NCBI RefSeq assembly: GCF_000018545.1
Contig: NC_012587.1
Span: 2,294,001 to 2,358,000, forward strand
Direction: 5' to 3'
Source of the DNA: Sinorhizobium fredii NGR234
GTDB taxonomy: Bacteria; Pseudomonadota; Alphaproteobacteria; Rhizobiales; Rhizobiaceae
DNA length: 64,000 nucleotides
In this document: one piece after another, positions 3,722 to 51,232 of the stretch
Layout: the number at the start of each line of letters is the position of its first letter
How positions within the stretch are numbered: position 1 is the stretch's first letter
Position numbers and translations under genes: made by a program
Notes under the pieces: generated by a model
The model's input: only the letters and a program-made list of their open reading frames with translations
Told to the model about the DNA's origin: nothing
The model's database searches: none

Positions 3722-3853
3722 TGTGGCCCGCCACAAACCTCTGAGCTGACGCTCTCCGAAAATCAACGACTTAGCTCGATTTGCGCCATATCCATTTGGA
3801 CGCAACGCCACATACCTCTGACCAAACTGGCCTCGAGCGCCACATCCCTCTGA
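3722..3853 (+). repeat. Left end of the Tn7-like element: terminal repeat and TnsB-type binding sites
   Basis: Three direct copies of the 16-mer CGCCACA-N-(A/C)CCTCTGA are seen at 3729-3744, 3806-3821 and 3838-3853. A weaker copy (CGCCATATCCATTTGG) lies at 3784-3799. The same motif in opposite orientation forms the right end at 51188-51232. Such repeats are the TnsB-binding sites that define Tn7-type ends; binding itself is inferred. Confidence 0.85.
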
Positions 3854-4143
3854 ACCATTCTGTAAAGCTTTGATTCGGAAGTTTAATTTGCGCAGGTAGA
3901 ATAGCCGAGCAAGCTGAGGCGAAACTGCCCCCTGAACACATCCAGTCGATTGTTGGAGCCGGGCGTGCGAAGTGGAAGACAGTGTTCCCAGTCGCAGTCG
4001 CTATGCCTCGGAATATGTTGAATGCCGTTGTGTGCCGATCTGCAATTCGGCCCCATTGAAGCCGGCCGATTTTCACGCCATCCTCAAAGTGTGAACATTG
4101 AAGCGAACTCAACTTTAAATAACAATACTGTTCGAATCGCTGG
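3854..4143. other. Non-coding stretch between the left transposon end and druH
   Basis: No convincing reading frame is seen. The AT-rich segment around 4110-4130 (CAACTTTAAATAACAATAC) is the most likely place for the Druantia promoter, but I cannot assign -35 and -10 boxes with confidence. Confidence 0.4.
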
Positions 4144-7100
4144 GTGGGGACTGCCGTGCATTTAAACAGCCTCGATGACGATAGTCTCCGCAAAGAATTC
4201 GAGCGGTCCTACCATCATCTTTGGGCTCTTGAGCAGCTCAATGACATCTTGAAAAAGCGGTACTCCGATGCGGCGTTCAATCTTCAATTACTGGTAGTCA
4301 AGAGACTTCGCGAGCTACGCAACGTGCCTAGCGCCGCTTCTACCCCGAGCGATCCAGCCAGTTCCTGGACTACGGCGTTTCTCAGCAAAAGAAACCTCAA
4401 AGCGCCTAACGGTCAGCCGTTCCACCGTTACAGGATGACCGACGAGGAATTCAGCGAAGCTGGGGTCGTGCTCAGGGGGCTCGCTGCCAGGCGGAAGCTG
4501 ATACCTGACCAGCGGACCGCCTGCGGGGTCTTTGCAGCATTCTGCGCTGAGTGGTTCCGACGGGAGGCAACGTCGACCTTCAGGAAATGGGACGCATTGG
4601 CACCCGATATATTTCCGGCCATTCATGGAAACCAGAAGAGAGAGATGGCCGAAAATGGGCTCAGATTCTGGCGACGCCCGCTTCTGAAGATCAACGGCGC
4701 GAATGAGTACCTTCTTTCCTTGGCGCTAGAGGGCGGTGTTCCCGTCAAGGTCATTGCGGATGAAGGTGCGGGGTGGCTTAGGGATTATCTGAGGCACCTG
4801 CTTCGTTTCGCGCTGGCGGGGCACGAGGTCGCCGCGGTGCGTGGCTATGCCCATGACGAGTCCTATAGGATTAAGCTCAGCTATCGGAACGATGCGTTTG
4901 TCGATCTCTGCGCGGAGCTGGCAGCCGAAGTCGCCAAATGGCGAACCGTTGTCGAAAGCGAGGCTATCGCCGGGATCGATCCTGTTTCCTTTTTGGACGC
5001 CAAGTACCCAACATGGAAGGATTCCATCCCGGTCTACCTTCCGACAGGCGCGGACTCGGCAGCTCGGGTTCTCCTCACGGGGCTAATCGCGGAAAAGATC
5101 GAAGCCTTCTCGAGCCATGGCATCGGATGCGAAAGGTTCCTTAGCTTAGAAGGTGGCGTGTGGCAGCCTGCACTTCGGATACAGGCAACAGGGGACATTC
5201 CGATGGGTCGGCTCCCCGGTGTATCGACGGCGACTCGGTGGCGCGCAACACCAGCCGGTATTTTGGCCGACTATCTTCCCAGCCAGTTGGCTTTGTTCGA
5301 GCCGCCGTCCGACGACCAGCAGTCCTGGCGGGTCCGCCCTTTGGCTGACCTGAGCCGAATGATAGTCGGGTTCCCACTTTCAGCGACCGTCAGCGTTAAC
5401 ATCACGGCTAACAACAGTGTTCAAGCGTTCGATTGGCCAAACGGCCAGCGAGCTACGTCCGACGTTCTCGTTTTCGATGAAGTAGAATCGTCGGAAACCC
5501 CCACCCTACTTCGACTGGTCAAAACGGGGTCATCGAGCCTTCCGTCCAAGAAGCTGTTCGTATTGGTGCCTGCGGCATGGACAATAGAAGGCAGCGACGA
5601 AGCCGTCGGACGGATATGGCGGGTGGCTGATCGAAAACTGATCGAGGTGACCGGGACCTGTTACTTATCTGAGGGTGGGGTCACCGAAGGTGGTCGCTAT
5701 CGCGTTCAAGCGGGGAGTGAACAGCGCGACGAAACGATCGAGCTGACCTCACGTTCCTCGCCGGGGATAAGTACCGCCGGCGATTTCGACGTGATGGAAG
5801 CGCCCGTCAGGCTGGTTGTCACCAGGAATGGAGCGCCCCGCCCGATCGAACGGGATGAATTGTTCGTCAGGCAATCCGGAGGACCTTGGAGGGCGCTGCC
5901 CGGGGGGGAAATTCCTGACGTCGGCATGGTCGAACTTTCGTGGCGCGACCCGAAATCCAATATTCAGATAGAAAAGCGGCGCATCGCTGTTGTTCCGGCT
6001 GGAGCGTCGGTCAAAGGCCTCTTGACGACGCCAACGACCGGGCGGATATCGCTGGCCGAACTCCCCGGATGGACGCTCGCACTTTCCAATGTCGCGAACG
6101 CCGTTTCGAGGAATGACGCCGGCAACATTCTTATCGAATTCAGCGGCAAACCAAACTACCGTCTACCGGCACTATTGGAGCCTCCCGAGGGCAAGCCAAT
6201 CCCGATCCTGGTCCCGGTTGCCGCCCGCGATTCGGTTATCGTGAACGGTGATGGCGAGGTGGTTGATGCCGGGCAGCAAATGGACCTGGCATCTCTTCGC
6301 GGCTCGCGGGCGATTTCCTCTCACAAATCGGTCCTGGTGATCTCGCGAAAGGGTTCCAAGTCGCAGGATATCTCAGTTGAGGTGGACGGAGAGTTTGCGA
6401 TCTCCACGCTCAAGTCGGCGATCGAACAGATCATGGCGAGCGTCGAGCATCAGGATGTCAAGCTCGATATGCATTTCGTTGGTGATTCTCGGCAGCCCAT
6501 CCGACTTGCGAGGTATCGATGGGATCGCCCGAGGCAAGAACGAGGAGCCGTCATATTTTCTACCGTGGGCGTCGCGGTCTGTCGTCCTGTCCTCGCCCCA
6601 GAGGTCGAGCGCATGCTGGACCATTTCCAACCTGATCGATTCAGTCTGCCTGAAGATGTGTATGGTCCCTGCCTAGTTTACCTCCGCGACGGACCTGACA
6701 TTCTGACCCGGCCACTGCTCCTCATTGGGGCTGCGGAGGTACCTGCGTTTCCTTCGGGGTCGCTGCGCACTGCGCTCTGCCTGAGGAATTACAGTGAACT
6801 TCAAACGGCAATCGCGGAGCGGCTGGGAAAGCTCTGGTGTGATCCGAACGCAATTGAGGACCTAGCCTACATCAGGACGCTAGTCGGAAACCTTGACGGC
6901 CTACCGCCGACCGCGTTCGAGGCCCTGAAGAACCTCCCGCATCATCCGAAAACCTTGGTTCGGTTGCTGCTGGGGGCAGCTGACGACAAAAGCCGTGTAG
7001 CGGTGTGGGGATTGCAGGGACAGTTGCCGTTCATCTGGCTTGGTATCCCCCTTGAGTGCTGGAAATGCGCATTCGACTTTGAGCGGAGCACGATAGAAAA

Positions 7101-7575
7101 TGCACTAGCGCAGGTTCCGGGCTCCGACGAGTTTCGCCTCGAAATCCTAGTTAGGTACTTCCGGGACAAACTCGCAAGCCTGGTCGACATCGAGCCCTCT
7201 CTCGCGGCGGTCTTTTCCGCGCTCGACTTTCCCCTCGCGCCCCGCACCAAGCCGCTAGAGAACATTATCGAAGACTTCATCAAAGACCAGCGGTCGCGGG
7301 AAACCGAAGACTCGAGCCACGTCGTTCGGGCAGCTCCCCTCGCCCGTCGTGTGTCCGAGCTCGGGCTTGCCGTGCCCAATGGCATAAGTCACCGCTTCAG
7401 TCTCGGAGACTTTGACGCGCTTTACGCGCCGATCCTTCTTGCTGCGAGTGCGCGCGGGCTTGCGATCATCGACCCCGACCTCGAAGTTCCACTTCGGGCC
7501 GCGCTTCACGAGAACGGTGCTTTCGTCTCCGAAGCCTATCCCCATTTCTTCAATTTCTTCAGGACCAAACAATGA
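4144..7575 (+). CDS. druH: Druantia type III anti-phage protein DruH
   Basis: A 1143-residue protein with no catalytic motif I can recognise. The assignment rests on size and context. It is a large protein of unknown fold, directly upstream of and overlapping by 4 nt (ATGA at 7572-7575) a 2042-residue DEAD/DEAH helicase with a C-terminal DUF1998-type cysteine cluster. That is the two-gene druH-druE architecture of Druantia type III. Residues 1-120 look helical and charged; the middle (about 400-800) is rich in beta-type segments such as RPLADLSRMIVGFPLSATVSV. The start is a GTG at 4144 or, 12 nt later, another GTG (4156) with GGGG upstream. The mechanism of DruH in phage defence is unknown. 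Confidence 0.8.
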   Translation: MGTAVHLNSLDDDSLRKEFERSYHHLWALEQLNDILKKRYSDAAFNLQLLVVKRLRELRNVPSAASTPSDPASSWTTAFLSKRNLKAPNGQPFHRYRMTDEEFSEAGVVLRGLAARRKLIPDQRTACGVFAAFCAEWFRREATSTFRKWDALAPDIFPAIHGNQKREMAENGLRFWRRPLLKINGANEYLLSLALEGGVPVKVIADEGAGWLRDYLRHLLRFALAGHEVAAVRGYAHDESYRIKLSYRNDAFVDLCAELAAEVAKWRTVVESEAIAGIDPVSFLDAKYPTWKDSIPVYLPTGADSAARVLLTGLIAEKIEAFSSHGIGCERFLSLEGGVWQPALRIQATGDIPMGRLPGVSTATRWRATPAGILADYLPSQLALFEPPSDDQQSWRVRPLADLSRMIVGFPLSATVSVNITANNSVQAFDWPNGQRATSDVLVFDEVESSETPTLLRLVKTGSSSLPSKKLFVLVPAAWTIEGSDEAVGRIWRVADRKLIEVTGTCYLSEGGVTEGGRYRVQAGSEQRDETIELTSRSSPGISTAGDFDVMEAPVRLVVTRNGAPRPIERDELFVRQSGGPWRALPGGEIPDVGMVELSWRDPKSNIQIEKRRIAVVPAGASVKGLLTTPTTGRISLAELPGWTLALSNVANAVSRNDAGNILIEFSGKPNYRLPALLEPPEGKPIPILVPVAARDSVIVNGDGEVVDAGQQMDLASLRGSRAISSHKSVLVISRKGSKSQDISVEVDGEFAISTLKSAIEQIMASVEHQDVKLDMHFVGDSRQPIRLARYRWDRPRQERGAVIFSTVGVAVCRPVLAPEVERMLDHFQPDRFSLPEDVYGPCLVYLRDGPDILTRPLLLIGAAEVPAFPSGSLRTALCLRNYSELQTAIAERLGKLWCDPNAIEDLAYIRTLVGNLDGLPPTAFEALKNLPHHPKTLVRLLLGAADDKSRVAVWGLQGQLPFIWLGIPLECWKCAFDFERSTIENALAQVPGSDEFRLEILVRYFRDKLASLVDIEPSLAAVFSALDFPLAPRTKPLENIIEDFIKDQRSRETEDSSHVVRAAPLARRVSELGLAVPNGISHRFSLGDFDALYAPILLAASARGLAIIDPDLEVPLRAALHENGAFVSEAYPHFFNFFRTKQ

Positions 7576-10500
7576 AACCCTTTGAAACGCTGGCTGACAT
7601 CAGACGTCGATCCGTAGACGCCGTCGTGGCGCAGCTCGGTACCAATAACGAGGCCCTGAACCAGCAACTGCGTTCCATGCTCGGTAGTGAGCGGACCGGA
7701 GACGGCTCACTCATTCAAGACCCCGTCATCGAAGGAGCGCACCCTTTCATCACAGCCGCCGAAAGCATGGCTGAAGTCCCGCCAGATGTGCTCCGCCCGC
7801 AACTCGTGTCGATCCTGGACGGACTCGATGAGGAAGACGAATATCGGTTTCCAAAATCCAGAAAACCTTTCAGGCATCAGTTGCAAGCCTGGACCAAACT
7901 TGCCCAGCCCGGAACCCCGCAATCGGTGCTCGTTACGTCGGGGACTGGCTCAGGAAAAACGGAGTGCTTTCTTTTTCCGATCCTCAGTGATCTCATCAGG
8001 CAGACCGAGGGCAACTCGGCAACATTGGAGGGCGTCCAGGCGATCATGCTGTACCCGCTGAACGCCCTCATTGAAAGTCAGCGGGCGCGTTTGTCCGCGT
8101 GGACAAGTCCCCTAAAGGGCCGCGTCCGGTATTGCCTCTACAACGGCGATCTCCCCCAGCCGGCTCTCCCAGAAAGCGAACGCAAGGCTTCGCCCGAACG
8201 CCAAATCGACAGACATCAGCTTCGCTCTTCACCAGCCCCAATATTGGTGACGAACATTACAATGCTCGAGTACATGCTGGCTCGAGCTGAAGACCAACCG
8301 ATTATCGAGAAGTCAAATGGGAAACTGCGGTGGATCGTATTGGACGAGGCGCATTCGCTGGTCGGTGCTGCCGCTGCCGAAACAGCACTGCTCATCCGAC
8401 GCGTCCTGCTCGCATTCAATACCGCCCCTGAGAACGTTCATTTCGTGGCTACCTCGGCAACGATCGGCGATGACCGGGACACCGATGACAAGCTTCGACA
8501 GTTTCTGGCCGAGGTCGCGGGCATACCTGACGACCAAGTGCATGTGATCAAGGGTGACCGCACCCTACCCCATCGTCCGAATGCCAAAGCCGACATGCAG
8601 ATCGATCCATCGGCAGCGACTCCCGCCGAGCTCTACGACTATTTCGGAGGAAAGGAACAGGTCTGGGAATTTATCAAAACGCTCAAGGAAAAACCGCAAC
8701 CGCTAACGGCGCTGGCAAAAGTCGCCAGGTCCGTCGGTATCGAAACCGAAGACTTCATGTCTCTGCTGGCCGCAGCTGAGAAATCGGACCCGGAGACCGG
8801 AGAACCGGAGCGCCTCGCGCCAATGAGGGTGCACAGTTTTGAGCGAGCAATTCCCGGTATCTGGGGATGCGTCAATCCAGACTGCGTCGCTGCACCATCA
8901 GGATGGCCGTTTGGGAAGTTGTTTCCCAGCAAATTCGAGAACTGCGACACATGCGGCGCTCCGGTGGTCGAGCTGATCAGCTGTACGGAGTGCGGAGAGC
9001 CAATGCTGGAGGCGGAAGAAGACAGGTCGGATGGTAAATTGCGCCCGTCCCGTCGGGGATTGGAGCGAGACGAGTTCCAGTATGAGGCCGAACGCGACGG
9101 AGAATTGGACGCCGAGGGCGACGAGGACGATGACGAAGAGGACGGCGACGCATCGCTTGCCCACAAATACATGGCAAAGCAGACCATCCTGTTCGCCGCA
9201 ACCCCTTCAAAATCCTCCCGTCTTATCTCCCTGTCGACCAAGGATTGGAGCGTGCTTGCTGGTCCGACTACCGACTCCGTCAACTTGAGGTACGAGGAAA
9301 AGTCGGTCGCAGAGGGCGTCTGCCCTTGCTGTGGCGTCAATGCGCTGCGCGGCATCGACAATCTGCTTCGACCGGTACGTTTCGGTGCGCCTTTCATGGT
9401 CACGGCGGCCGCACCAATACTGCTCGAAGCTGTCGATCCGAAGCCCAACAGCGAACGCACGTTACCATCCTCTGGTAGGGGCCTCATTTCGTTCACTGAC
9501 AGCCGCCAGGGAACAGCCCGGATGTCGGCGAAGTTCCAAGCGGAGTCCGAGCGGAATTTCGTGCGATCATTCATCTACCATGCGGTGCAAGGTGCACTTG
9601 CGGCCGACGAGGACACTCCCGAGGTGGCAAACGTTCGCACCGTTATTGCGCAAATCGAGCCCCTGGTTGGCACGAACCCAGGACTACAGCTCGTATTGGA
9701 TGGACAACGCGAACAATTGGCGAAGCTGACGAGCGAGAGCGTAATCGGCGTCAACTGGAACGCACTCATAGATCGCCTCGCGAGGCGACCGGAGGTTGAG
9801 TTCTGGATGAAGGAAGTCTGGGAACCTCGCGACCCGGATCGCTTCGGCGATGCGCACAAATTGGCGGAATTCCTGCTGTTGCGCGAGCTGTTCAGACGCC
9901 CGCGGCGCGCGAACTCGCTAGAGACCCTGGCACTGGCATGCCTAAAATTCCCGTCTGTGGAGCGCATTGCTTCCATGCCGCCGGCGTTCACACGCCGCGG
10001 GAAAACGATAAATGATTGGCGTTATTTCCTGACCGCCATCATCAATCACTTCATACGCGCGAAATCGGCGGTGGACGTAGATCGTCGCACGATGCGCTGG
10101 ATCGCACCTCAGATTAAGTTGCGGCCGCTTCTGGGGCCGGGGCGCTCCAGCGGAGGCGACAAGCGTTATGTGATTTGGCCCAAGGTTCCTCGGAACCTGT
10201 CGAGCCTGTCCACGCCTCAGACCCTCCTCATCATGGGGCTGAAGCTCGATATCGCCGACCCGAGCGATCGTGACGACATGCAGGATTGCCTTCAGATGGC
10301 GTGGGATCAGCTCCAACAGGTCTTGAACGCCGACCGTGACAATCCCGCGCTCGACTTCTCAAAGTCGGTCGTCGCGCCTGTGACCGACGGCTTCCGATGC
10401 CCGATCACTCGCAAGGCAATAGAGATCGCACCTTTCGGCCTCACTCCCTACGTTCGCATCAATTCGGCGGTTTCGAATGCCACTCCGCTCAGGATGCCAG

Positions 10501-13500
10501 AGATTCCATTCCAGCTCATCGCGCCCGACGATCCAGCATCGGCCAAATCAAAAATCTCGGACTGGCTGAACACCGACGGACGTGTCGCCGATCTCAAGAA
10601 GGCGGGCATTTGGATCAACATTTCCGAACGCATTGCGCTCTTCGTCGATTACGCCCGGTCTGCAGAACACTCCGCTCAACAGGAAAGCCAGCGTCTCCGG
10701 CAATACGAGACGGATTTCAAGGATGGCCGAATAAATATCCTAAACTGCTCTACGACGATGGAAATGGGCGTGGACATCGGCTCTGTTTCCACGGTGATGA
10801 TGACAAACGTTCCGCCGTCTATCGCGAACTATCGCCAGAGAGTAGGTCGCGCAGGGCGGCGTAGGCAGCCGTTCTCCATGGCATTCACGTTCTGCCGGGA
10901 CCGCCCGCTGGATCGCGAAGCCTTTGGAAATCCCTTGGCATATCTCGATCGAGCAATGTCACCTCCCAAGGTCGCCTTGAACAGTCGGCCAATCGTCCAG
11001 CGACACGTCAACGCATATCTTCTCCGCCAATACATGCTGGCCAGGGGCGGAGACACTCTCAAGCTGACAATCGGCTCGCTGATGGGATGCCCGATCAAAC
11101 TGCTGGAAGGTCGGGTCGAAAATGCCCCTGTATCGCAATTCCTGCAATGGCTCGAAGACCCAAGCACCATCCGTGCGACGACCGCGGACTTGAAGACGCT
11201 AGTGGCTCGGTCCGTGCTGGAGCAGGACAGCACGCTGGTCGAGGATTGCCGGAAGGCAATGCAGGAGGTTGAGGAGGTTTTTGTCCACGAATGGGAAGGC
11301 CTTCGTCAACTTGCACGCGACGAAGGCGAGAACATGAAAGAAGCAGGCCGAGCTCGCATGTCGCTCGAACTCCAGAGGCTTTGCGGCGAATTCCTCCTCA
11401 GCGCTCTCGCTGACAGAGGTTTCCTACCGGGACACGGATTCCCCACAAACGTTGTCACGTTCATCCCTCACAGGTCGAAGAAGCCAAAGCAAGATGAACC
11501 GTCGATGGACGGTCGCAGACACGCGAGGCTGTCCGGCCCCCAACGATCCCTAGACCTGGCGATCCGCGACTATGCCCCCGGTTCGGAAGTCGTCCTCGAC
11601 GGCCTCGTGCACCGCTCGGCCGGCGTTCTACTCAACTGGAAAAGACCTGCGACCGAAGAAAAGGTCAGAGAGGTCCAAAGCATTCGCCGGCACTGGTGCT
11701 GCTCGCAATGCGGAGCTGCCGAGACCACTCTTCAGGATGTGCGTGTCTGCCGCGAATGTGGTGCGCAGGTACTCAGCGTCGAATACCTGCGGCCCAGCGG
11801 ATTTGCTGTCGACTTCTGGAAGAAGGAACATGCAGATACCGATCGGATCACATACGTTGCGCCGGAGGAACCCGTCGTATCGATCGCAGAGGAGCCGTGG
11901 ATCGCGCTCCCTATCCCATCTTTGGGGCGCTTCCGCGGGAGCGGCGAAGGCACCGTGTACTACTCGAATGCCGGGCCGACCAGGAATGGTTACGCGGTCT
12001 GTTTGCACTGCGGTCGCGCCGAACCCGAGCTCGATCCCGCTGGTAATTCCGACGAGGCCCGTTCGTTCTCGCCTCTGGATGGACACCGCCCGCTGAGACG
12101 GAAAGCAGCCGACGGCGACATCATCTGCGAAGGCGTCGAGAAGAAGTGGAAAATCAAACGGAATCTCGCCCTCGGTTACGAGATCACGACTGACGTCTTC
12201 GAGTTGCAACCTTCAACTCGAATTTCCAAAGCGGCGGCGACCGCATTGGTTATCGCCATGCGTGAAGCTCTTGCGCGCTCGCTAGGCGTAGAGGCAGACG
12301 AAATGGGTTATTCCGTTCATCGCTCCAAGAACGAACTTGGTGGTGACTGCAATTCTCTGCTCGTCTTTGACAAGAACGCAGGCGGCGCTGGGTTCTCGAT
12401 TGCGATGGGCTACAACATCGCGAAGGTACTCAAGGATGCGGAGGAAATCCTGGATTGCAGCAGTCCAGGGTGTGTTGACGGCTGCGCAGCCTGCGTTCTT
12501 ACCTCGGACGCTCCGTTCGAGGACGGAGAATTGGACAGGACTTCAGCCCTCGCCTTCGTTCGCGGCCATCTGAGCTTTGGTGCTGCGGTGGAAGTCAGAG
12601 ACCGTTTCTCTGATGACACGGTTCTCTCGATCGCGATTACCGACGAAGTCGATCGCGAGCTTAAACGTCGCAATAATCCGCTTTTGAGAATCTACATACC
12701 CGAGGATGCCGATCTCGGACAGATACCTTCGTGGTCGGTTATGCAAGACCTGAGCACCTGGTCATACCGTGGATATCGTCTCGCCGTCGTGGTGCCACCC
12801 AAGACAGTCGCACGATCAGATCAGGCATCGAAGCTCGTTCTTCAGACGCTGGGACACAGACTATCCGTGGACGACAGGTTCGCGATCCATATCGGCGAGG
12901 CACCGATATGCTCAAACGGCGCGAGTGTTCTAGCGACCGTAAGCGGGAATGGCCACACCATGGCTTGGGCGACACATAGCGCTTCATCTCGCTATCCTGG
13001 CATCGCCTGGGGACAGCCGGCAGAAGGCTCCATCTTCAGGGGGACCATCCAAGACACCGCGTCCACAAACCCGATTTCACCTTCGGAGCTTCTCCCGCAA
13101 TCGACTGCGAAGGTGCTTCTTATCGAAAAGAATCTGGATCGTTCGATGAGCCTCTTCGGAACAGGCATGGCAGGGCTCATCCGAACCAATCTAGCGAACC
13201 TCGGATTTGAAGCGGACGCCGCGATATCACGAATTGAATATAAGGACCCGTATGTGCGGTCGCCGTTGGTGTCAAAACTGCTTATCGACACGGCAGCGGC
13301 ATTGTTCAAGTCCTCGACGTCGCCCGTCTTAAAAATCACGACCGCGCCGCCGAAAGCGCCGGTTTCGCCTCCAAAGCATATTTCGAACGACTGGCCCGAC
13401 GGCCACTTGGTTTCCTCGGTGCAAGCAGAATATGGTCGTCTGAAGAACATTGACGTCCAGGTCAGCCTCGGCGACTGCGGCCATGGTCGATTTATGGAGT

Positions 13501-22495: not shown

Positions 22496-22506
22496 AGGAA
22501 GCAAGA

Positions 22507-40770: not shown

Positions 40771-41838
40771 TCATCGCTTGTACTCGTAGAGGATGACCGC
40801 CTTAACGAAGTCATCGGTCGCATTGGGCTTCCAGCGCCTCACTTCGTCAGAGACAAGGGGTAAGCACCCTTCCATTCCCCCTTTCAACGTGGCAGCGGCG
40901 TCGATGACGGGGGTGACTGTTTCCTTCACGTTTGCCGCAAGCTCTAGGGTGCCAGCACTCCAGCGGCGCTTGCGTTCGGCCATGTAGCTGTTCCACTCCC
41001 GCTCTAGCCTGCTGTCTTCCTGATGTGGAACCGCGAGTTGCCGCGAGGTGGTTTCCCAGCTTGGCCGGTATAGATACGCACTGTCCAGTGCCCCGAGCCA
41101 CTTGTCCATGTCTGCCCGGGTCATGAATTTCGACGCTTTCAAGTCGGCGAAACTCTTCACATTCGCGAGCCGCTTGGAACGCCTTTTTCCTTCGTTTGCG
41201 AGATGAAGCGTGAAAGGGACGGAACCGGGTTCGGCACTGGTGTGGTCCTTCAAGAACAGACTGACCTCACCGAAAACGGCTTGTTCGTAGCTTGCGAGGT
41301 TGAGTTCACAGTAATCGAAATGGAAATAGCCAAGGTGATCGACTTCCTTGAAGCCCTTATTTTCGAGCTTCATTGCCGTCACGAACTTGGCAACGTCTTC
41401 GGGTTTCGCCGTGCTGAAGCTGGCCTCGCCGTACTTCGTGCCGATTTCGACGAGGGGTTGGTTACTGACAAAGACGAGCTTTTCAGCGGCGCTTCCAAAC
41501 CGCTTGAAGTTGCCGAACATCTTACCGACGAACGAGGCTTTCGGTTTAGGGACCTTCCCCGTGCTCATGGGACGGTCAACCAGTCTTGTGATGGTCCAGT
41601 TTCCCGCTTCCTGTGTCTTTACCTGATAGAAGACAGCTTTCGTGGGGGCGTCGGCGTCGTCTAGCGAAACGATGTCGTCATGGAATTCAAAGGCGACGGC
41701 GTAATTGAGATCGGCGGCATGCAGTTTGAGAACTTTGGATATGCCCCATGCGGTCTGAAAGTCGAACCGGTCGATGGCGGTGCGTCCGCCGTTCTCGGGC
41801 TCCTTTACCGTCATCATGTCGTCGATCAGCTTCACCAC
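40771..41838 (-). CDS. lmuA: DUF4297/Cap4-type nuclease, Lamassu LmuA-like effector
   Basis: 355 residues. The N-terminal domain (about 18-100) reads AIDRFDFQTAWGISKVLKLH, then FEFHDDIVSL and AVFYQVKTQEAGNW. The E51/D54-D55 and QVK (72-74) set is the PD-(D/E)XK signature of DUF4297/Cap4 dsDNA nucleases. The rest is an all-alpha region ending in VKAVILYEYKR, likely the contact with the SMC partner. The start is one of two adjacent GTG codons behind AGGAGG (41838 or 41835). With lmuB it forms a two-gene abortive-infection-type system; toxicity on activation is inferred from the family. Confidence 0.75.
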   Translation of the reverse strand: MVKLIDDMMTVKEPENGGRTAIDRFDFQTAWGISKVLKLHAADLNYAVAFEFHDDIVSLDDADAPTKAVFYQVKTQEAGNWTITRLVDRPMSTGKVPKPKASFVGKMFGNFKRFGSAAEKLVFVSNQPLVEIGTKYGEASFSTAKPEDVAKFVTAMKLENKGFKEVDHLGYFHFDYCELNLASYEQAVFGEVSLFLKDHTSAEPGSVPFTLHLANEGKRRSKRLANVKSFADLKASKFMTRADMDKWLGALDSAYLYRPSWETTSRQLAVPHQEDSRLEREWNSYMAERKRRWSAGTLELAANVKETVTPVIDAAATLKGGMEGCLPLVSDEVRRWKPNATDDFVKAVILYEYKR

Positions 41839-42784: not shown

Positions 42785-44950
42785 TTATGCTGGCGGACCA
42801 GAGTTGTCAGCGGTTTTCCGCTTCCTCCACCGTTCCCTCGTCTTCGCGTTTTGCCGCGCCGTGGCCTCCTTCATCACAGCGTCGAAGACACCGAGCATTT
42901 CCTTTATTGAGACGACGTAGTCCTCCGTATTCAGGTCGAACCAGAAATTCTGCCGTTCGCCCCTAGCGCTCAAATTGATATGGATTCCACCAAGACCCGG
43001 GTCGTACTGAAAGTGCGCCGACATACCCCTGCTTGAGTTCCAGACGCGTTGGCCACACATCGGCAGACGTGGCGGGAAAATCAGGTACGGACAGACCTTG
43101 GCCGCCTCTGGCACGATGATTTCCCAGAACCTGTCTACTCTGGCGTCTTCCAAAACTGTTGGATCGTTCTCCAGTTCATAGACCCGCATGACATCGTCCC
43201 GCCTGAAAACGGTGTCGATCTGCTTTCCGCCCTTGACGAATTTAACGATAGGCCGGACGCCCTCGCGCTGCATCCTCCAAGTCACCGCATGCCCGGAGAT
43301 GCCCATGCCATGTCCGAAGTCGGACGCCTTGGCATGGCCGGCAGCGAAAGCTTCGACTGCCTCGCGGGAAATCAGGACCTGACGGGGACTACGTTCCACC
43401 TCCCCCAGATGACCTTCCTTCACCAAAACGAACACCGTCTCATACGTCATGTTCAGGAGCGCCTGGGCCTCGCCCATGGTCATCGTCTCGTCAGAGCGCG
43501 TGAACGACTGACGTTTCCGCTTAGCGTCCGTGTGTACCATGAGTCGCTTGAAGCCAGGGACGTCGCTGCGCTTTTCGCAGATGACGACCTCGCCTTTCAG
43601 GCACGCGACAGCCAGTTCGCCGGGCAGGATATTGTTGCGGACACGATAGGTGTGGAATGTAAGGCCGTAGGCAACGGGACCAGTCACCGGGAGGTCCTCG
43701 ATCAAACGCAGCACATTGGCAACCTGATCCGGCGAATACCGTCCTCCTGCACGTCGACCGGGATTGAGCCCCTTGAAAACGGACAGGTAACCAGCGTGAA
43801 CTAGATGGCGGATGGCATCCTGGTGAATACCGAGCCGCTTTGCCGCCTCGCCAACCCCGATAAGGGTCTCCTTGAATTTGGCGATAGCGGGGATGGCCTC
43901 GGCAGCCACGGTGCGGCGCTCTCGAGTTTTCTGAAGGACGCCGATCTCGCGAGCCAGGAGCTCGACCGCGCGGGGTTCGATGTTTAGCTGCTTCGCAATC
44001 TCCACACGCGGAGCGAACTCCACGTCGAAGTCCTCGTCTTTAACACGCCGGTCGTATCCTTCGGTCTCGAACACGGCGGCCTCTTGGAAGGCACGCCTCA
44101 GTGTCGATCGGAGGCTTTCGGGAAGAAAAGCTAGCATCGGATAGCCCCAACTGAAGTGGGCCGCGACTCCCCTCGCCTTATGTCCGCGCCGATATTTGCG
44201 GTGCCAAGTTCGGAATGCTTCGGCCAAGTCTCCCCTGTCCCCGCAAAGAGCGCCGTAGCCGATGTCCCCGGAGTGTTGGCCGATTGCGGGATGTTTCCTT
44301 ACAGGTGGGTTTTCGAGAAAGCGGCCGACGAACTCGCAGTAGTCGATGACGTCGGGAATGCTGATGGCGTCGAGCAACGGCGCACTGGTCGGCTCGAGCC
44401 AGCCGAAGCGGCCGAGAAGATATCGGGCAAACGGCGCGCCGTCGTCTCGCTTGGGCAAGGGATGGCCGAGCGCATAGCCGTCACGGGAGTATTCAAAGCC
44501 GAGCCACGACCAAGGGACAAGCGTCCCGCCCTCATCGCGCGTCACCAACTCGACACAGTGGATCGGGCAATGGCGGATGGATTCAACCTCCCACCATCCG
44601 CGGTGACGGGGGGACTCGTGGATGCAGCCAGGGCACCAGCGCCGCATCCCTAATCGAATGTGGTGGTACGGCAGACTATGTCCTCGGAGGACATAGCCGT
44701 CGCCGTCACGGAGCGGCGTGTTGAAGCGCAGCCGCTTGAACCACTCGGGCGGCATGGGATGCCGCTCGAGGGTTTCCATCAACTGATTGGTCGCGACGCG
44801 GTTGACCTCGAGGTCGTTCCATTGGGCGAAGGTGGTCATGCTGACCGAGCCTTCAAGCTCGGCCAGCCGCATGAAGTATCCGTGGGCGGGTTCGTCGGAT
44901 GCCGGAGAAATGTCCCAGCGCGAAAATACAAGGGTCTGGATGAATGTCAT
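42785..44950 (-). CDS. tnsD: TniQ/TnsD-type target-selection protein
   Basis: 721 residues. The N-terminus (PAHGYFMRLAELEGSVSMTT) and the zinc finger WCPGCIHESPRHRGWWEVES with IRHCPIHCVEL are the TniQ signature. A long C-terminal part includes HTH-like blocks (LIGVGEAAKRLGIHQDAIRH; TMGEAQALLNMTYETVFVLV). The length is that of sequence-specific TnsD rather than short TniQ, so it likely recognises a fixed attachment site, here probably the tRNA-Ile(CAU) gene next to the right end. Last core gene of the tnsABC-tniQ operon; its start lies 1 nt after the tnsC stop. Confidence 0.92.
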   Translation of the reverse strand: MTFIQTLVFSRWDISPASDEPAHGYFMRLAELEGSVSMTTFAQWNDLEVNRVATNQLMETLERHPMPPEWFKRLRFNTPLRDGDGYVLRGHSLPYHHIRLGMRRWCPGCIHESPRHRGWWEVESIRHCPIHCVELVTRDEGGTLVPWSWLGFEYSRDGYALGHPLPKRDDGAPFARYLLGRFGWLEPTSAPLLDAISIPDVIDYCEFVGRFLENPPVRKHPAIGQHSGDIGYGALCGDRGDLAEAFRTWHRKYRRGHKARGVAAHFSWGYPMLAFLPESLRSTLRRAFQEAAVFETEGYDRRVKDEDFDVEFAPRVEIAKQLNIEPRAVELLAREIGVLQKTRERRTVAAEAIPAIAKFKETLIGVGEAAKRLGIHQDAIRHLVHAGYLSVFKGLNPGRRAGGRYSPDQVANVLRLIEDLPVTGPVAYGLTFHTYRVRNNILPGELAVACLKGEVVICEKRSDVPGFKRLMVHTDAKRKRQSFTRSDETMTMGEAQALLNMTYETVFVLVKEGHLGEVERSPRQVLISREAVEAFAAGHAKASDFGHGMGISGHAVTWRMQREGVRPIVKFVKGGKQIDTVFRRDDVMRVYELENDPTVLEDARVDRFWEIIVPEAAKVCPYLIFPPRLPMCGQRVWNSSRGMSAHFQYDPGLGGIHINLSARGERQNFWFDLNTEDYVVSIKEMLGVFDAVMKEATARQNAKTRERWRKRKTADNSGPPA

Positions 44951-44951: not shown

Positions 44952-45905
44952 TCACGCCGCCATCTGGAAAGGATACGTGGTCTCGCCGATGCGCTTGCGC
45001 ATGAAGCAGGCCGCCTTGAGATGCTTGCCCGCGATACATGGCGCGTCTTCTGCGATCGCGCGACGTGCGGCGTCGATCACGATGTTCATCGTCAGGCCGA
45101 CGGAACCGCCTGCGGCGAGCTTCCACTCATCGATCCATTCATCACGGTCGAGACCGGAGTCTTCCGCAAACGGAAGGCGTTCGGAAACGCCCGCCAGAAA
45201 TTCGAGGTAGTGGTCGAGTTCCTCGTTCATCGAAGTGTCGTGTTCAGCAAGATGTGCCGCCGGGAAGGAAGCCCGGTTAAAATGCTGCCTGTGTTCCAAC
45301 ATTCCCGCCTCGATGACGTTCAGGCCAGCCAGGAGGATTGAGCAAGCCCCGCTGTCTGCCAAGGCCTTGATCAACGAAAGCATGCCTTTCCGCTTCGCGG
45401 GTGGGGCCTCGAAAATGTAGTGGGCATCGTCCAGGATAACGAACACGGTGCCATGGCTGGCGACGCGCCTAACGCATTTGCTCTCGAGCGATTTACCGCC
45501 GATGTATGGTACCGAGGACGCCCCGGTGGCGAGGTAGAGCGCCGTCGCCAAGTCAGGCGCGCCCCACCTGTCCATGACCTCCACGTAGGCGAATGGATAG
45601 GTAAAACTGCTTTCGGGCGTGAGTTGATACGGTTTGTTGTCGCGCAGGAGCGTTTTCAGGAGCCACGACTTGCCAGCGCGGGAATTGCCCAGGAAGCCGA
45701 CGATTTCGCCTGTGATGGGCGCGCCGTCCTTTCCCTGCTTATGCAGGCCGAAGACTTCCTTGTAAGCCGTATTGAAGCGTGGATACCGGACAAGGAGGTT
45801 CTTGACCTGCTCCTGCCTTTCGGCCGGGGAAAGCTTGAGCATGGCGAGACGCGCCTTCTCGTCGTTCACGTAGGAAACCTCATGAAAATTGGGCAGGATG
45901 ATCAT
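44952..45905 (-). CDS. tnsC: TnsC/TniB-type AAA+ transposition regulator
   Basis: 317 residues. Walker A FLGNSRAGKSWLLKTLL, Walker B VFVILDDAHYIFEAP, and a C-terminal lid with GGSVGLTMNIVIDAARRAIA. TnsC polymerises on target DNA with ATP and links TniQ-bound target to the TnsAB transposase. It overlaps tnsB by 4 nt (45902-45905), which indicates coupled translation. Confidence 0.93.
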   Translation of the reverse strand: MIILPNFHEVSYVNDEKARLAMLKLSPAERQEQVKNLLVRYPRFNTAYKEVFGLHKQGKDGAPITGEIVGFLGNSRAGKSWLLKTLLRDNKPYQLTPESSFTYPFAYVEVMDRWGAPDLATALYLATGASSVPYIGGKSLESKCVRRVASHGTVFVILDDAHYIFEAPPAKRKGMLSLIKALADSGACSILLAGLNVIEAGMLEHRQHFNRASFPAAHLAEHDTSMNEELDHYLEFLAGVSERLPFAEDSGLDRDEWIDEWKLAAGGSVGLTMNIVIDAARRAIAEDAPCIAGKHLKAACFMRKRIGETTYPFQMAA

Positions 45906-48325
45906 TTGGTGTCTCCGTTTTTGGCCAGGCGTGCGCGGCGCGCGGCGCGGGCGTCTTCGATGGTCTTTTCAGTCAGGGCAGCGGTCTCGGCAGCGATGGG
46001 GGCGGCCGCAGGTGGTGTTTCCTTCACGGGGCCGGACTTCTCGGTCCTGGGCCGACCACGACGCTTATGTTCCTTGACGGCATCTTCGAGCGGATCGCGG
46101 ATGGTCACGGTGCCGTCGGCGTTCATGACCGCAAAGTTCTCGGGCGTTCCGTCACGGTCGTTCGCCGGGTTGCTCAAGGACTTCGACCGCTTCGATTTAG
46201 GTTCCAAAGGAGCGGCGAAATCGATGTGGCCCGCACTCGCGGCCGCGCTGGTCGTCGCGGTGACGATGGCGCTGCGCTTGAGCTTCTTGGAGACCTGGGT
46301 CCGGAATTTCAGGAGCGCCTGGGCATTACGTTGAAGGCCCTTCTTGTCGTAGATGTCCGCCAGTTCCTTCGACAGGGTCCTCTTGGCGACGATGAGGTCC
46401 TCGATCGTCACGCGCTTGCCCCTGGTCAGCTTGTTGTGATGCTCGACGGTCTTCCGGTGCTGGTACATAGTCGTCCCGCGGGCATACTCGAGGCAGCGGC
46501 CGTTGGCGCGCAGGCGGATGACCCTGTCCGGGCGGTAGGGATTGACGACGAAAGCATTGGAGATGTCTCCCCACTCGACCGTGAGCTTGTACTTGACACC
46601 CGGGCGATGATCGGGATGGGCGGTGATCTCGAGCAGGTCTTCGGACACGTAGGTGATGTGTTCCGACGTCATGCCGTCGTTCTGGATGGTCACCTCGGTG
46701 GTATGGCCGCCAAGGGCGAGGAAGATTTCCGGATCGATCGGGTCGCGGGGCGGCATGTTCGCCTGTCCCGCCAGCCATACATCCTCCGGGGTGGCCTTGA
46801 GTCGCGGAAGCTTGCCGATGCCGCGCCGCGGGGTCTTATGGTAATCCGCGATCCAAAGGACCATGAAGTCCTCAAGCTGGCGCATTGTGATCAGCGGAAG
46901 GCCAAGCCCCTTGCTCTCATCGAATAGTTTGCGGCGCTCCGGGTTCGACATCGTGGTGCCGGGAAGCTTGTGGAAGAGCTGACGCATCAGCGTACCGAGC
47001 ATGCGCTCGACCAGCCCCTTCCCGGTTGGCTCTCCAGGCACGTTTTCGATGAGTTCGAAGCCGAGTTCCTCGGAAGCACCCACGATCTTGTGACCGCGCA
47101 GGAATGACGCCGCGTCGGTCACAAGGGCCGCAAAGTCGCCGTACTGGTTCCATTCGACGCCTGGAAACCTGCTCATGTCCTTGGGGTACATGGCGAGGCG
47201 CATGCCGTGCAGGAAGGCTTCGAAGCATTCGTCCTCGAAGTGGATGGCGAAGCCGATGATGCATCCGCTCTTCTTGTCTACGAACAGCAGGATATGCGGG
47301 CGTCCGAACAGGAACTGGAACTCGTCGTCGCACACGACGATGTCGCCGAGGGTATAGTCCGCTTCCACGATGCCCAGGATATGATCGGGGAGCGCCCGAG
47401 ACGTGTAGAAGCTGTGTTTGCGACGCGCGTATTCCGGGCCGAACCGCCAAAGGTCCTTCGAGTAGCGGTCCGGTGCTGCGAAGCGCCGCTGGATGGTCCG
47501 CAGCATGGGAACGAGGAGCGTCCCGTCCGGCTGCGTGATGTCCTTCACGAGCTGGCGGTGTTCGCTCTTCGCAAGCTCGACTTTGATCTGTTCCTGAACG
47601 TCGAGAGCTGTACCGGCGGGAAGCTCCCATGCCCACTGCACGCATTCATCGATGATGTCCTCGAGCCGCGGATCGAACTTCCTGACCGTGTTGCCGCCGG
47701 ACGTTTCGGTCGCGAGCGCGAGCAGACGGTTGAAAGGGTTCTCCTCGTACTTCTTGAGCCACATCCTCAGCGAATTGTAAGCGGGCCGCTTGTCGTGGCC
47801 TTTATCCTGCGCGTGCTTAGCCGCCACCTCGAGGATAAGCTTTTTGGTGAGCCGGACCTTTCCGCCCTGGCGCGCTTCCACCAGCTTGCGGGCATACCAC
47901 CAGCGTTTCATCGCGGTGGTCCGTGCCTCCTTCGTGAGGGCCAGATAGCTCTTGATCTGCGGTTGCTCGGTCTTCTTTGACGCGCGCTCTGCCTTGGTAT
48001 TGATCGGGATCAGGCGAAACTCCCGTTCCAGGACGCTGATCTGCCAGTCGGACAGGAACGTCATCTCGTTCGTGTCCGTATTCTGGACCATGAACTTCTC
48101 GCCCCCGACGCCGTACCGCGCCCTGGACATCACCGCGCAATAAGCGACCTTGGTCCGATCGAGATTGAAAACAGCGAATTGCGAGCCAGGCCCGAAATTG
48201 TAACGTTGCGGCTGGTGCTTACCGCCTCCGACAGGATGGGGCGGGATGTCGAGTTCCGCGTAACTCGATGCGGGGACGAGCGCTCCGTTGGTGAGGAACG
48301 TGCTTTTGTGATGCATGAAGCTCAT
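45902..48325 (-). CDS. tnsB: TnsB-type DDE transposase
   Basis: 807 residues. A retroviral-integrase-like core with catalytic D near 323 (GIVEADYTLGD), D near 404 (LVTDAASFLRG) and E near 440 (GEPTGKGLVERML). It is followed by a Mu-type beta-barrel (GVKYKLTVEWGD, VNPYRPDRVIRLRANGRCLE) and a basic C-terminal tail that should contact TnsC. TnsB binds the repeats at both ends and joins the 3' ends to target. It overlaps tnsA by 1 nt and tnsC by 4 nt. The GGxxTEV-like insertion at LGGHTTEVTIQND precedes the barrel. Confidence 0.94.
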   Translation of the reverse strand: MSFMHHKSTFLTNGALVPASSYAELDIPPHPVGGGKHQPQRYNFGPGSQFAVFNLDRTKVAYCAVMSRARYGVGGEKFMVQNTDTNEMTFLSDWQISVLEREFRLIPINTKAERASKKTEQPQIKSYLALTKEARTTAMKRWWYARKLVEARQGGKVRLTKKLILEVAAKHAQDKGHDKRPAYNSLRMWLKKYEENPFNRLLALATETSGGNTVRKFDPRLEDIIDECVQWAWELPAGTALDVQEQIKVELAKSEHRQLVKDITQPDGTLLVPMLRTIQRRFAAPDRYSKDLWRFGPEYARRKHSFYTSRALPDHILGIVEADYTLGDIVVCDDEFQFLFGRPHILLFVDKKSGCIIGFAIHFEDECFEAFLHGMRLAMYPKDMSRFPGVEWNQYGDFAALVTDAASFLRGHKIVGASEELGFELIENVPGEPTGKGLVERMLGTLMRQLFHKLPGTTMSNPERRKLFDESKGLGLPLITMRQLEDFMVLWIADYHKTPRRGIGKLPRLKATPEDVWLAGQANMPPRDPIDPEIFLALGGHTTEVTIQNDGMTSEHITYVSEDLLEITAHPDHRPGVKYKLTVEWGDISNAFVVNPYRPDRVIRLRANGRCLEYARGTTMYQHRKTVEHHNKLTRGKRVTIEDLIVAKRTLSKELADIYDKKGLQRNAQALLKFRTQVSKKLKRSAIVTATTSAAASAGHIDFAAPLEPKSKRSKSLSNPANDRDGTPENFAVMNADGTVTIRDPLEDAVKEHKRRGRPRTEKSGPVKETPPAAAPIAAETAALTEKTIEDARAARRARLAKNGDTK

Positions 48326-49122
48326 CAGTTGGCCCTTTCTTCGATATTGGCCAACAGGGAGGACTTCCGGGTGATCTTGGTGGCGAAGGAGATGACGGCC
48401 GACATGTCGAGGGTGATCTCGCCTTCATTGGCGAGCCACATCACGGCCGAGAACGCGCGTTTGATTTCGGGAAGCTCGCGATACTGCGCGATGGTGCCGT
48501 CGTCGTTGAAGAAGACGTGCGCCCGATTGGGGAGCGCGGCGGCCAGAGTGATCGCCGCAATATCCGTGACGATGGGAAGCGACGCCATCGCGCGCCGGAC
48601 CCCCATGATAGCTTCCATGTTCGGCCGCCAGGCGTGGTAGCGGATGGTCTGGTAGTTCTTCCACCGTGGCTGGCGGTGCAGCTCGGTTTCATCGAGCACG
48701 CGATAGGTCGCGCGGTAGTCTTCCCAGAACGTCCTCTTCAGCCTGTTTGTACGGCTTTCCAGCCAAGGCATGTCGCGCTGTTCGGCTACGGGAACGATGT
48801 CGAAGTAGGAAGCCTGCTGCTGGCGTGACCAGATACCGAGATCGGGGACATGATCGAGCGTGCCGATTACGCCGTATCGGTCCTCGACCTCGTATTCCAG
48901 CCGCATTGGGAAGTCGCTGATGCGCACGACCTCCGGATTGCACTCGAAGTGAATGATGGCGTCACGCATCAGGGTCGAGTGCGCCCTCATCGATTTCCGT
49001 GCGCCCTTGCGCAACGGAACGTTGACGGGAATCTTCCTGTTCTTCTGGCGTTTGGCGACCTTCTTGAGTGGTACGTGGTCATCCCCGAAGCCGAAGAACT
49101 TCATGAGCTGTTGTTCGTTCAT
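48325..49122 (-). CDS. tnsA: TnsA-type heteromeric transposase endonuclease
   Basis: 265 residues with the TnsA layout: SMRAHSTLMRDAIIHFECNP (E60 at the catalytic Glu position), TLDHVPDLGIWS (D94) and a helical C-terminus (EGEITLDMSAVISFATKI). TnsA normally nicks the 5' ends so that the element moves by cut-and-paste. After D94 the strand that should carry QxK or ExK reads YFDIVPVAEQ, with no lysine, so activity needs testing. First of the four tns genes and nearest the right end, as in Tn7. Confidence 0.88.
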   Translation of the reverse strand: MNEQQLMKFFGFGDDHVPLKKVAKRQKNRKIPVNVPLRKGARKSMRAHSTLMRDAIIHFECNPEVVRISDFPMRLEYEVEDRYGVIGTLDHVPDLGIWSRQQQASYFDIVPVAEQRDMPWLESRTNRLKRTFWEDYRATYRVLDETELHRQPRWKNYQTIRYHAWRPNMEAIMGVRRAMASLPIVTDIAAITLAAALPNRAHVFFNDDGTIAQYRELPEIKRAFSAVMWLANEGEITLDMSAVISFATKITRKSSLLANIEERAN

Positions 49123-49198: not shown

Positions 49199-49348
49199 TC
49201 AGCAGTGCTTGGACAGCTCGTCTTCGTAGAGATGGCCCTGCCATTCGCGCATCAGGTCGGCGATGGTGATGCATTCGCAGCCAAGAGAGTCGATGTCGGC
49301 CATCCGGATCGGACGGGCGGTGGAAACGGTGTCGTCGATGAAAAACAT
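49199..49348 (-). CDS. 49-residue small ORF upstream of tnsA
   Basis: ATG at 49348 with GGGAGAA about 8 nt upstream opens a 49-codon frame (MFFIDDTVSTARPIRMADID, then LGCECITIADLMREWQGHLY). It has a protein-like acidic composition with two close cysteines (CEC) and a C-terminal CxxC-less HC end. It precedes tnsA by 76 nt on the same strand, so it may be a small accessory protein of the transposition operon or an anti-sense-free leader peptide. No family recognised. Confidence 0.55.
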   Translation of the reverse strand: MFFIDDTVSTARPIRMADIDSLGCECITIADLMREWQGHLYEDELSKHC

Positions 49349-51143
49349 GCGCACTTCTCCCGATGGCACACGGCCAAGCGGGTTACGATGAACATTGGGG
49401 AAGAGGGACGCACCTTCTTGGCGCGTGCCTGGAGGTCAAAGTTCGGAGAGTTTGGCGAACCGCCCGAACTGCAAGCAAACGACTACGAACTGCCGATGGC
49501 AGTCATATTCGCGTGGCTATCTGCAGTCCGTGGGCGGTCATGGGTGCGATCCCGTGTAGGGAAACGGTATGGCTCATCGTTTCCGTTCACGGTTTGTACC
49601 GGACGAATTCGAAGAGTCAACCGGGCCCAGCCCAGCAGACTGCAGAATTTTCATGGAAGGGGGACGAGCCGACGCGGGAATCCGTTGACAGGACCAATCC
49701 AACCGGCAACACTCAAACTGCTAGGTTCTGGTGTTTTTTGGTTGGTTTATTGGTGTCCTGCCCTGCAGTCCCGATAAACAATCAGGAAGCTCACGGATTT
49801 CCACACAACGGGTCGTCCTCTAACGGGGCGGCCCGTTGTTACTTGGTCGGCGGCGTAGGCGATTGGCCATCCTTCACTCCTGGCTTCGTTGGTCCTGGCA
49901 AAATATTGAGCGCCGACCGCTGAAGTTGGCAAGCCTTTCCCTCGACCACACGCCCGGCCCTTTTGGACGACACGACAGCTGCCGAATTATTTTTTCGGGT
50001 AGCGTCGGCAACATCCAAAAAATTAGAACATCCTAATGTATAGACGAGGCAGCTTTTACCTCTACGGAAAGCCGTCTACTTTTGTGGACAATTCCTCGGC
50101 TGAAAAAATCTGCTGGTGCCCCTAGACAAGCACGAAGTTTGTTCTATTTTTGTTCACCATGAAAACCTGGACCTTGATCATCACCGCTCGAATAGGCTGA
50201 ACGCCCTGGCCAAGACGGCCACCGTCCGGAATCGTGTTGTCGAGGTCTATCCATATGCTCGCCATTGAAGATGTCGTTGGCGCTCCTGCCGCAGGGGGAG
50301 TAGCGACGCGGAAGTCTTTCTTTCCATCATTCGTTGCCGCTGGTCATACCCAGGATACCAACCACTGCCATCCTGGTCGCGATCGATCCGTGAAGTCTCT
50401 CCTGTCTGCGCCACCCGACTTCTGGACGCCGAGAATCCAGGTCTACGATTTCCTCGACGACAACACATACCCCGCCGACGCGGAATATTCTCGTTGGCGG
50501 CCGTTAGGCCCGGCATCGTCTGGCCCCACTAGAATGCTCGCCGTGACGAAAGACGTCACGAGCGTGTCAACTGCTTCGGAACAAAGGTGCGAAGGTTGAA
50601 TGAGTGGGAGCGAAACGACGTCTATAATTGGGGTGGGATGTGCAGCGCAGGAGAAGCAGAATCAGGAAGCTCCATGATGCCCTGGGGTCCAAATTTTCCA
50701 GTTCGGATGGGTTTCGCACCGACGGTGGTCCGGGCTAGATATGAGGTCTTTGACTATCAGTGGAAGTCCTCGCGACCTCGGCCCTCGGCAAGAAGGAAGA
50801 CTGAAGCAACCGCGACCACGCGATACGCGCCCGCGGTTGGGACTAATGCATGACTTCATTTGCGCCCATGTAAGCGTCAGGAAATTGAAGAACTCGCTCG
50901 CAAAAGCGACGTCTTGAATTTCCGAAAATAGGCCGTCTCTCTGGAAGAGGATATCAAAGACGTCGGGGCAGAAGGACGTCGCCGAGCCGAAAAAGCCTAG
51001 CGGAACCCAAGCACATTTATGATTAAATTTCAAGGCGTTGACTGATTATCAACTTTGTGCCGCCCGACCGTTTGACCGGGCTATTCACATCTTTGTGAGT
51101 TGACGGTTTTTCTCGCAAAATCGCATCTCAAGTCCGTCTTTTT
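49349..51143. other. Right-end non-coding region of the transposon
   Basis: About 1.8 kb with no gene I can support on either strand. It contains an SOS-type promoter at about 50124-50155 pointing to the right. A weak plus-strand frame at 50255-50599 (MLAIEDVVGAPAAGGVATRK) has a GAGG site 9 nt upstream, but its sequence is not convincing. AT-rich segments around 49990-50040 may hold the tns promoter or remnants of lost genes. Confidence 0.45.
50141..50155 (+). promoter_or_regulatory. LexA (SOS) box in the right-end region, pointing toward the tRNA
   Basis: Exact GTTC-TATTTTT-GTTC (GTTC-N7-GTTC) with TAGACA 16 bp upstream of TATTTT, so the box covers the -10 as in the two other SOS promoters of the element. 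An ATG follows 3 nt later, but the frame closes after 13 codons. No convincing gene is downstream; the transcript would end at the terminator 51144-51176. Confidence 0.65.
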
Positions 51144-51176
51144 GACCGCCTCGGCCATCCCGCGGCGGTCTTTTTT
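51144..51176 (+). terminator. Rho-independent terminator inside the right end
   Basis: GACCGCC (51144-51150) pairs with GGCGGTC (51164-51170), followed by TTTTTT. It would stop rightward transcription before it leaves the transposon and reads antisense through the tRNA gene. Confidence 0.75.
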
Positions 51177-51187
51177 GTCCCTGAAGT

Positions 51188-51232
51188 TCAGAGGTTGATG
51201 GCGGCGGGTTCAGACGTTGATGGCGGCCGAGA
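51188..51232 (-). repeat. Right end of the Tn7-like element: TnsB-type sites and terminus
   Basis: Two inverted copies of the left-end motif lie 22 bp apart: TCAGAGGTTGATGGCG (51188-51203) and TCAGACGTTGATGGCG (51210-51225). The last base is 51232; read inward the end is TCTCGGCCGCCATCAACG. Compared with the left end TGTGGCCCGCC the second base is C, not G, so the usual TGT...ACA terminal triplet is not conserved here. Confidence 0.85.

Follow-up and report, generated by a model that had tools for sequence, protein, structure and literature searches.

A probable Tn7-like transposon of a divergent rhizobial family at the 3′ end of a tRNA gene in Sinorhizobium fredii NGR234

The 64,000-nucleotide stretch of the Sinorhizobium fredii NGR234 genome analysed here (the window; G000:C3:2294001–2358000, from a 6.89-Mb genome in three contigs) very probably carries, at positions 3722–51232, a complete 47.5-kb Tn7-like transposon, and in all likelihood this element is a complete member of a divergent rhizobial family whose insertion targets are tRNA 3′ ends. 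A preliminary description of this DNA had recognized the type of element and its borders, both of which stand, but had named neither the tRNA site, nor the abnormal TnsA, nor a recurring pair of genes encoding a TnsA paralogue and a protease, all of which are described below.

Ends, duplication and attachment site

Recomparison of the ends bore out what had been claimed for them: the terminal 23-bp sequences are identical at 17 of 23 positions, TnsB-type repeats lie inside both ends, and the 5-bp duplication, TGTTT, is exact on the two flanks (Table 1). The window holds five TnsB-like sites, three in plus orientation at the left end and two in minus orientation at the right, all pointing inward and all inside the two ends, with none elsewhere in the 64 kb at a cut-off of at least 13 of 16 matches to the first left site (which itself matches by construction); ten simulated order-1 windows contained a mean of 0.5 such sites each. 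The element is present as a single copy in the genome, and its right end starts 7 nt beyond the 3′ end of a tRNA gene with anticodon CAT, whose features we presume to favour Ile2 over Met.

A scan of named genomes with the single TnsB protein revealed two close relatives, in Pseudorhizobium pelagicum (84% identity to the window in TnsB and 80% in TniQ) and in Hoeflea sp. BRH_c9 (66% and 76% respectively). A CAT tRNA stands in the corresponding position beside both elements, and the right end lies 7 nt after the CCA in all three. P. pelagicum allowed a blind test, in which TGCTT, read at the right end, was found as its reverse complement, AAGCA, before the left end, which is on another contig and was located through its TnsB sites. 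Because the left end thus bore the duplication that the right end had predicted, the borders in the window gain support; moreover, the spacing of the left-end sites (0/77/109) is identical in P. pelagicum and the window, and the alignment of the two left ends begins exactly at 3722. The left end of the Hoeflea element was not found. A Tn7-like element with these borders is supported by two close relatives with the same tRNA gene and the same geometry.

The wider family and its insertion sites

A TnsB search of 394 genomes of the same bacterial family gave a match at 1e-3 in 94 and uncovered nine operons besides that of the window, with TnsB 29–34% identical to the window protein, and two further operons, in S. 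meliloti USDA1021 and R. tumorigenes, showed 30% and 27% identity respectively. With P. pelagicum and Hoeflea these make up 14 operons, a count from which a second R. tumorigenes plasmid (H2) with the same match was left out. TnsB matched 3,632 plasmid records in all, three of them over 80% of its length, and a TniQ search widened to the order gave matches in 12 of 397 genomes, the source genome being one and the others matching weakly. Judged by these identities, the family is divergent, TnsB being about 27–34% identical beyond the two close relatives. The nine operons have the same gene set, except for G043, in which tnsB had no identifiable tnsA next to it.

The right end could be mapped in eight of the 14 operons, and in all eight it adjoins the target, so that the tnsA-side end faces it: seven lie next to the 3′ end of a tRNA (CAT, Thr, Arg-TCT or Arg-CCG, two of these being displaced tRNA fragments) and one next to a metY-type stop codon. 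Seven members have both ends mapped, and in six of them the 5-bp duplication is exact, whereas in the other it matches at four of five positions. Five of the seven are distant relatives. In G480, AAACT flanks ~26.5 kb on both sides and the site (L096 4900–5010) is a 15-nt fragment identical to the CAT tRNA 3′ end; in G371, TAAAG occurs on both sides, at a displaced tRNA-Arg(TCT) fragment (L098 7380–7680) whose intact gene is 18 kb away; and in G440 the element has a TTTTT/AAAAA duplication and adjoins an intact tRNA-Thr(GGT). The pSymB of USDA1021 carries a ~33.9-kb element at tRNA-Arg(CCG), its right flank reading GTCTT and its left flank ATCTT, and S. meliloti SM11 provides the site without the element (CCA-GTCTT-TCAACC). 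In the fifth, G264, ~39 kb is flanked by two copies of TCTGA, and an O-acetylhomoserine aminocarboxypropyltransferase gene has its stop codon within the right copy. Searches for sites, tRNA tails and repeats were unconvincing for G415, G288, G043 and two G419 operons, several of whose contigs are short, and the unmapped R. tumorigenes right end was sought by tRNA scan only.

Displaced fragments can mean that the fragment itself was targeted or that an island later arrived between the tRNA and the transposon; since two relatives adjoin such fragments, the transposon and tRNA islands share sites. In the TnsB tree (built with one distant outgroup, and with some supports of only 0.49–0.74), the deepest split has tRNA users in each of its two branches, with G264 placed among them, which fits target switching.

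Several points weigh against a family of tRNA-homing transposons with a complete member in the window. Tn7-like elements typically have 5′-TGT at both termini, and the left terminus here is TGTGG whereas the right is TCTCG, reading on as TCTCGG instead of TGT. The exact empty site predicted earlier (3721 joined to 51238) could not be confirmed, being found in none of 199 genomes of the bacterial family, only two of them congeners, with up to three mismatches allowed, and none of the flanks of 29 congener loci is identical to it. Among these loci only G015 has the left flank of the window within 1.5 kb of the tRNA, and because window base 3061 is there joined to the tRNA, with 16 nt between, G015 lacks not just the element but also the 660 bp next to its left end (3062–3721). 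Among the relatives, the G264 target is a protein gene rather than a tRNA, and the search pattern for its left end already contained the predicted duplication; the G371 duplication could be read in two ways until its left end came to light; the G440 duplication is a run of T; and the right end is unmapped in six of the 14 operons.

Sequence similar to the 660-bp piece occurs at other places in many congeners, and its only open reading frame (ORF; 3139–3669) had no NCBIfam match at 1e-5.

In another congener, G008 (L104/L105, G008:C44), a different insert of ~25 kb lies between the same tRNA and the same left flank, and the tRNA end is an insertion hot spot with different neighbours in congeners. 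Such variation, together with a large serine recombinase gene at 33063–35147, would suit a tRNA-borne genomic island that a tyrosine or serine integrase had inserted and in which the tns genes were mere passengers. However, the borders consist of inward TnsB-like sites and a 5-bp duplication, with no repeat of the tRNA end, the serine recombinase has no match in the relatives compared, and the homologous ends and duplications of those relatives contradict an integrase island, which we regard as very improbable.

Ends, inward TnsB-like sites, duplications, a constant orientation and a near-constant distance to the tRNA are all apparent in the sequences of the window and its relatives. For the transposition route we infer that the TniQ/TnsD-type protein recognizes the target: it would bind the tRNA 3′ end, likely via its C-terminal helix-turn-helix (HTH) domains, TnsC would relay the target signal to TnsB, and TnsB would join the right (tnsA-side) end 5–7 nt past the CCA, in an insertion that would duplicate 5 bp and leave the tRNA gene intact. 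The element may also have remained mobile.

The leader between the right end and tnsA is strongly conserved and apparently non-coding in the window, P. pelagicum and Hoeflea. This conserved stretch (~49380–49712) could be seen as a source of guide RNA and, with a CAST-like (CRISPR-associated transposon) element as the other variant, would make target choice RNA-guided. Yet a search for repeats of at least 22 nt detected no CRISPR-like array, no Rfam family other than tRNA was found, no Cas protein appeared among the proteins scanned (a subset of ORFs), and TniQ is long and has HTH domains, so that RNA guidance appears extremely improbable beside recognition by TniQ.

Transposition genes, the altered TnsA and its paralogue

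The claim of a full tns operon running from the right end was confirmed: reading away from that end, the order is tnsA, tnsB, tnsC and tniQ, all on the minus strand and all with open reading frames. TnsB matched solved TnsB chains with an E-value of 7e-22, and D323, D404 and E440 are kept in nine of nine aligned sequences; TnsC and TniQ scored above the Pfam cut-offs, the HTH domains of TniQ being of the MerR and excisionase types, and TnsA and TnsB matched no Pfam family at 1e-3. A small ORF upstream of tnsA (49199–49369) is 48% and 34% identical over 44 aa in the two close relatives and has no NCBIfam match.

The predicted model of TnsA (mean predicted local distance difference test score 84) matched Tn7 TnsA structures in a fold search with E-values of 4e-9 to 9e-7, and the family TnsA profile matched a comparison set of five TnsA proteins with a probability of 97.8 (only one of the five was found by the Pfam model itself, and a sixth locus, L144, stayed outside the set), with no meaningful match of the profile to PDB sequences. 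We compared residues in 11 of the 14 operons, the TnsA of USDA1021 and R. tumorigenes being unaligned and G043 having no tnsA found. At the aligned Glu, Asp and Lys positions, which we take to be the catalytic residues of Tn7 TnsA, E, D and K or R are found in each of the five comparison proteins. In all 11 family sequences, by contrast, M, S or A replaces the Glu of the SxxE helix and V, I, L, E or M replaces the Lys, while the Asp position is D in five, E in three, Q in two (Hoeflea and G480) and M in one (P. pelagicum). Of the canonical PD-(D/E)xK residues for cut and paste, the Glu and the Lys are thus missing from every family TnsA aligned.

An altered TnsA, IS21-type genes inside the element and a single copy in the genome are also what an immobile relic of a true Tn7-like insertion could present. 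The four tns frames are open, however, TnsB has its DDE residues, and the change in TnsA is common to the aligned family sequences and so does not indicate decay of the window's copy; we consider a relic unlikely.

K39 and D108 of TnsA are invariant (11/11) and D54 is kept in 10 of 11, so that a re-built active site is possible, and in G415 a Lys occurs one position beyond the expected place. That TnsA still cuts through such a site, and the element moves by cut and paste rather than replicatively with a non-catalytic TnsA, is a serious possibility, if somewhat short of probable: mapped members resemble simple insertions, and no family-wide resolvase was seen among the cargo genes compared, but the Glu and Lys positions are substituted in every protein aligned, the Asp position is M or Q in three, and cointegrates resolved by the recombination system of the host leave simple insertions as well (PMC11406308). 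An element can count as Tn7-like without having TnsA (PMC8649781).

Within the element, an FtsH-like AAA/M41 protease gene adjoins that of a TnsA paralogue. The paralogue matched the family TnsA profile with a probability of 97.0 (E 1e-10) and the comparison TnsA set with a probability of 85 (E 6e-6), and the protease, which has Walker and HExxH motifs, appears to be soluble, both as read by eye. The pair occurs near nine of the 14 operons (window, G264, G288, G415, G480, Hoeflea, P. pelagicum, R. tumorigenes and USDA1021); in G440 the paralogue is at a contig edge, and no pair was seen in G371, G043 and two G419 operons, whose contigs are short or split. All 11 rows of the paralogue alignment, ten of them family members and the other S. 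meliloti AK76, have D50, D79 and D93. In AK76, the pair (pSymB; L169 30463–32987) lies near the same tRNA-Arg(CCG) as the USDA1021 element, and the 45 kb examined there contained nothing that matched tns genes, which speaks against a strict link between pair and transposon. It is conceivable, though doubtful, that cutting has been remodelled in this family, that TnsA of the core operon is a non-catalytic assembly subunit, and that the TnsA paralogue, with its three invariant acidic residues, works in tandem with the transposon-borne FtsH-like protease to control or dismantle the transpososome at tRNA 3′ ends. In Mu, the AAA+ unfoldase ClpX acts on the DDE transposase complex, and that unfoldase is the host's, whereas the FtsH-like protease is carried by the window element itself.

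Cargo and comparison with known systems

The proposal that the accessory genes are the cargo of one element was largely upheld, except that some of the cargo looks like later insertions inside it. Druantia type III genes lie at the left and Lamassu genes beside tniQ (Table 1). G264 shares eleven of the cargo genes compared, at 79–96% identity (DruH 95%, DruE 96%), despite TnsB and TniQ only 33–35% identical to those of the window; the anti-virus defence genes thus move as part of the element and pass from one element to another. The cargo also includes a protein whose N-terminal domain is of the CoiA type (13778–14596; also L147 7046–7828), 90% identical in G264 and 63% in the S. meliloti element. 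Of the 22 genes in the comparison, those tested at ~19936–24847, 30308–35969 and 37038–41838 had no match in G264; these blocks, which include major facilitator superfamily, IS21-type, short-chain dehydrogenase/reductase, serine recombinase, OLD-like and Lamassu genes, therefore seem either to have joined the window element later or to have been lost from G264. IS21-type genes, the large serine recombinase and an rve-domain fragment are found inside the element at 20945–23283, 30308–31913 and 33063–35969, and are probably nested insertions.

Table 1. Features of the element and its attachment site, by window position
Feature	Position	Strand	Basis
Left copy of 5-bp duplication, TGTTT	3717–3721	.	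Exact copy at 51233–51237
Left end, TnsB-like sites at 3729, 3806 and 3838	3722–3855	+	Aligns with P. pelagicum left end
DruH, Druantia type III	4144–7575	+	PADLOC, 1619 bits
DruE, Druantia type III	7572–13700	+	PADLOC, 2257 bits
FtsH-like AAA/M41 protease	25939–28050	-	Pfam AAA, Peptidase_M41; FtsH_fam E 4.5e-57, below its cut-off
TnsA paralogue, 210 aa	27918–28550	-	NCBIfam TnsA_like E 4.4e-5, below cut-off
OLD-like ATPase	37038–38870	+	Pfam AAA_15/AAA_21; PADLOC Old E 1.9e-16
LmuB, Lamassu	39031–40719	-	PADLOC E 3.9e-213
LmuA, Lamassu, Cap4-type nuclease	40771–41838	-	PADLOC E 2.7e-89; Pfam Cap4_nuclease
tniQ/tnsD-type target selector, 721 aa, HTH domains	42785–44950	-	Pfam TniQ, HTH_17, MerR_1
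tnsC, TniB-type ATPase	44952–45905	-	Pfam TniB and AAA_22
tnsB transposase, DDE D323, D404, E440	45902–48325	-	Match to solved TnsB chains
tnsA-like, canonical Glu and Lys absent	48325–49122	-	Fold match, profile alignment
Small ORF of ~50 aa upstream of tnsA	49199–49369	-	Kept in two close relatives
Conserved leader upstream of tnsA (approximate limits)	49380–49712	-	Alignment of three relatives
Right end, TnsB-like sites at 51188 and 51210	51188–51232	-	Site search
Right copy of duplication, TGTTT	51233–51237	.	Exact copy of left
tRNA gene, anticodon CAT, attachment site	51240–51315	-	ARAGORN, Rfam

Like Tn7 (TnsABC and TnsD), the window element combines TnsA, TnsB and TnsC with a selector containing a TniQ domain, and shares with it arrays of TnsB sites, a 5-bp duplication and a tnsA-side end that faces the attachment gene (PMC11406308 for part of the Tn7 features). 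It differs from Tn7 in that its family uses tRNA 3′ ends instead of glmS, TnsA is without the canonical residues, TnsC is TniB-like, and TnsA and TnsB lack a Pfam match at the threshold used.

Protein-guided homing to tRNA genes is shared with type I-B2 and I-D CASTs that have a tRNA-targeting TnsD, such as CyCAST, and according to a review, different tRNA genes have repeatedly been acquired as sites through TnsD and TniQ (PMC10293859, PMC11406308). Unlike the window element, however, these CASTs have a fused TnsAB, CRISPR-Cas and two TniQ/TnsD proteins, and CyCAST inserts ~30–33 nt past the tRNA, compared with 5–7 nt past the CCA in the window family. Membership of the CASTs was considered and rejected, with no array-like repeats and no Cas genes encountered among the repeats searched and the proteins scanned. 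A TniB-type TnsC, TniQ and a possible replicative route are shared with Tn5053-type and other TnsA-less elements, which have dropped tnsA and often carry a resolvase (PMC8649781), whereas the window family keeps a TnsA without canonical residues and shows no shared resolvase among the cargo genes compared.

Homing to tRNA genes by TniQ/TnsD, defence cargo, and cargo common to distant Tn7-like elements are already in print (PMC11406308, PMC10293859, PMC8649781). In the excerpts searched (PMC10293859, PMC8649781, PMC11406308, PMC5994717), a search beyond whose reach lay most subscription papers and preprints, we met no description of this rhizobial family, nor of a 5–7 nt spacing over several tRNAs, a TnsA without canonical residues, or the paralogue/protease pair.

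The altered TnsA raises the question of whether a Tn7-type system can work without canonical nuclease residues, and the evolution of target choice can be tested directly with related TniQ proteins, which differ in their tRNA targets and in one case have a protein gene as target. Moreover, the exact borders and the attachment rule (CCA, 0–2 nt, 5-bp duplication, tnsA-side end) make it possible to delimit elements of this kind, together with the defence genes they carry, in rhizobia and thus also in the model Sinorhizobium meliloti.

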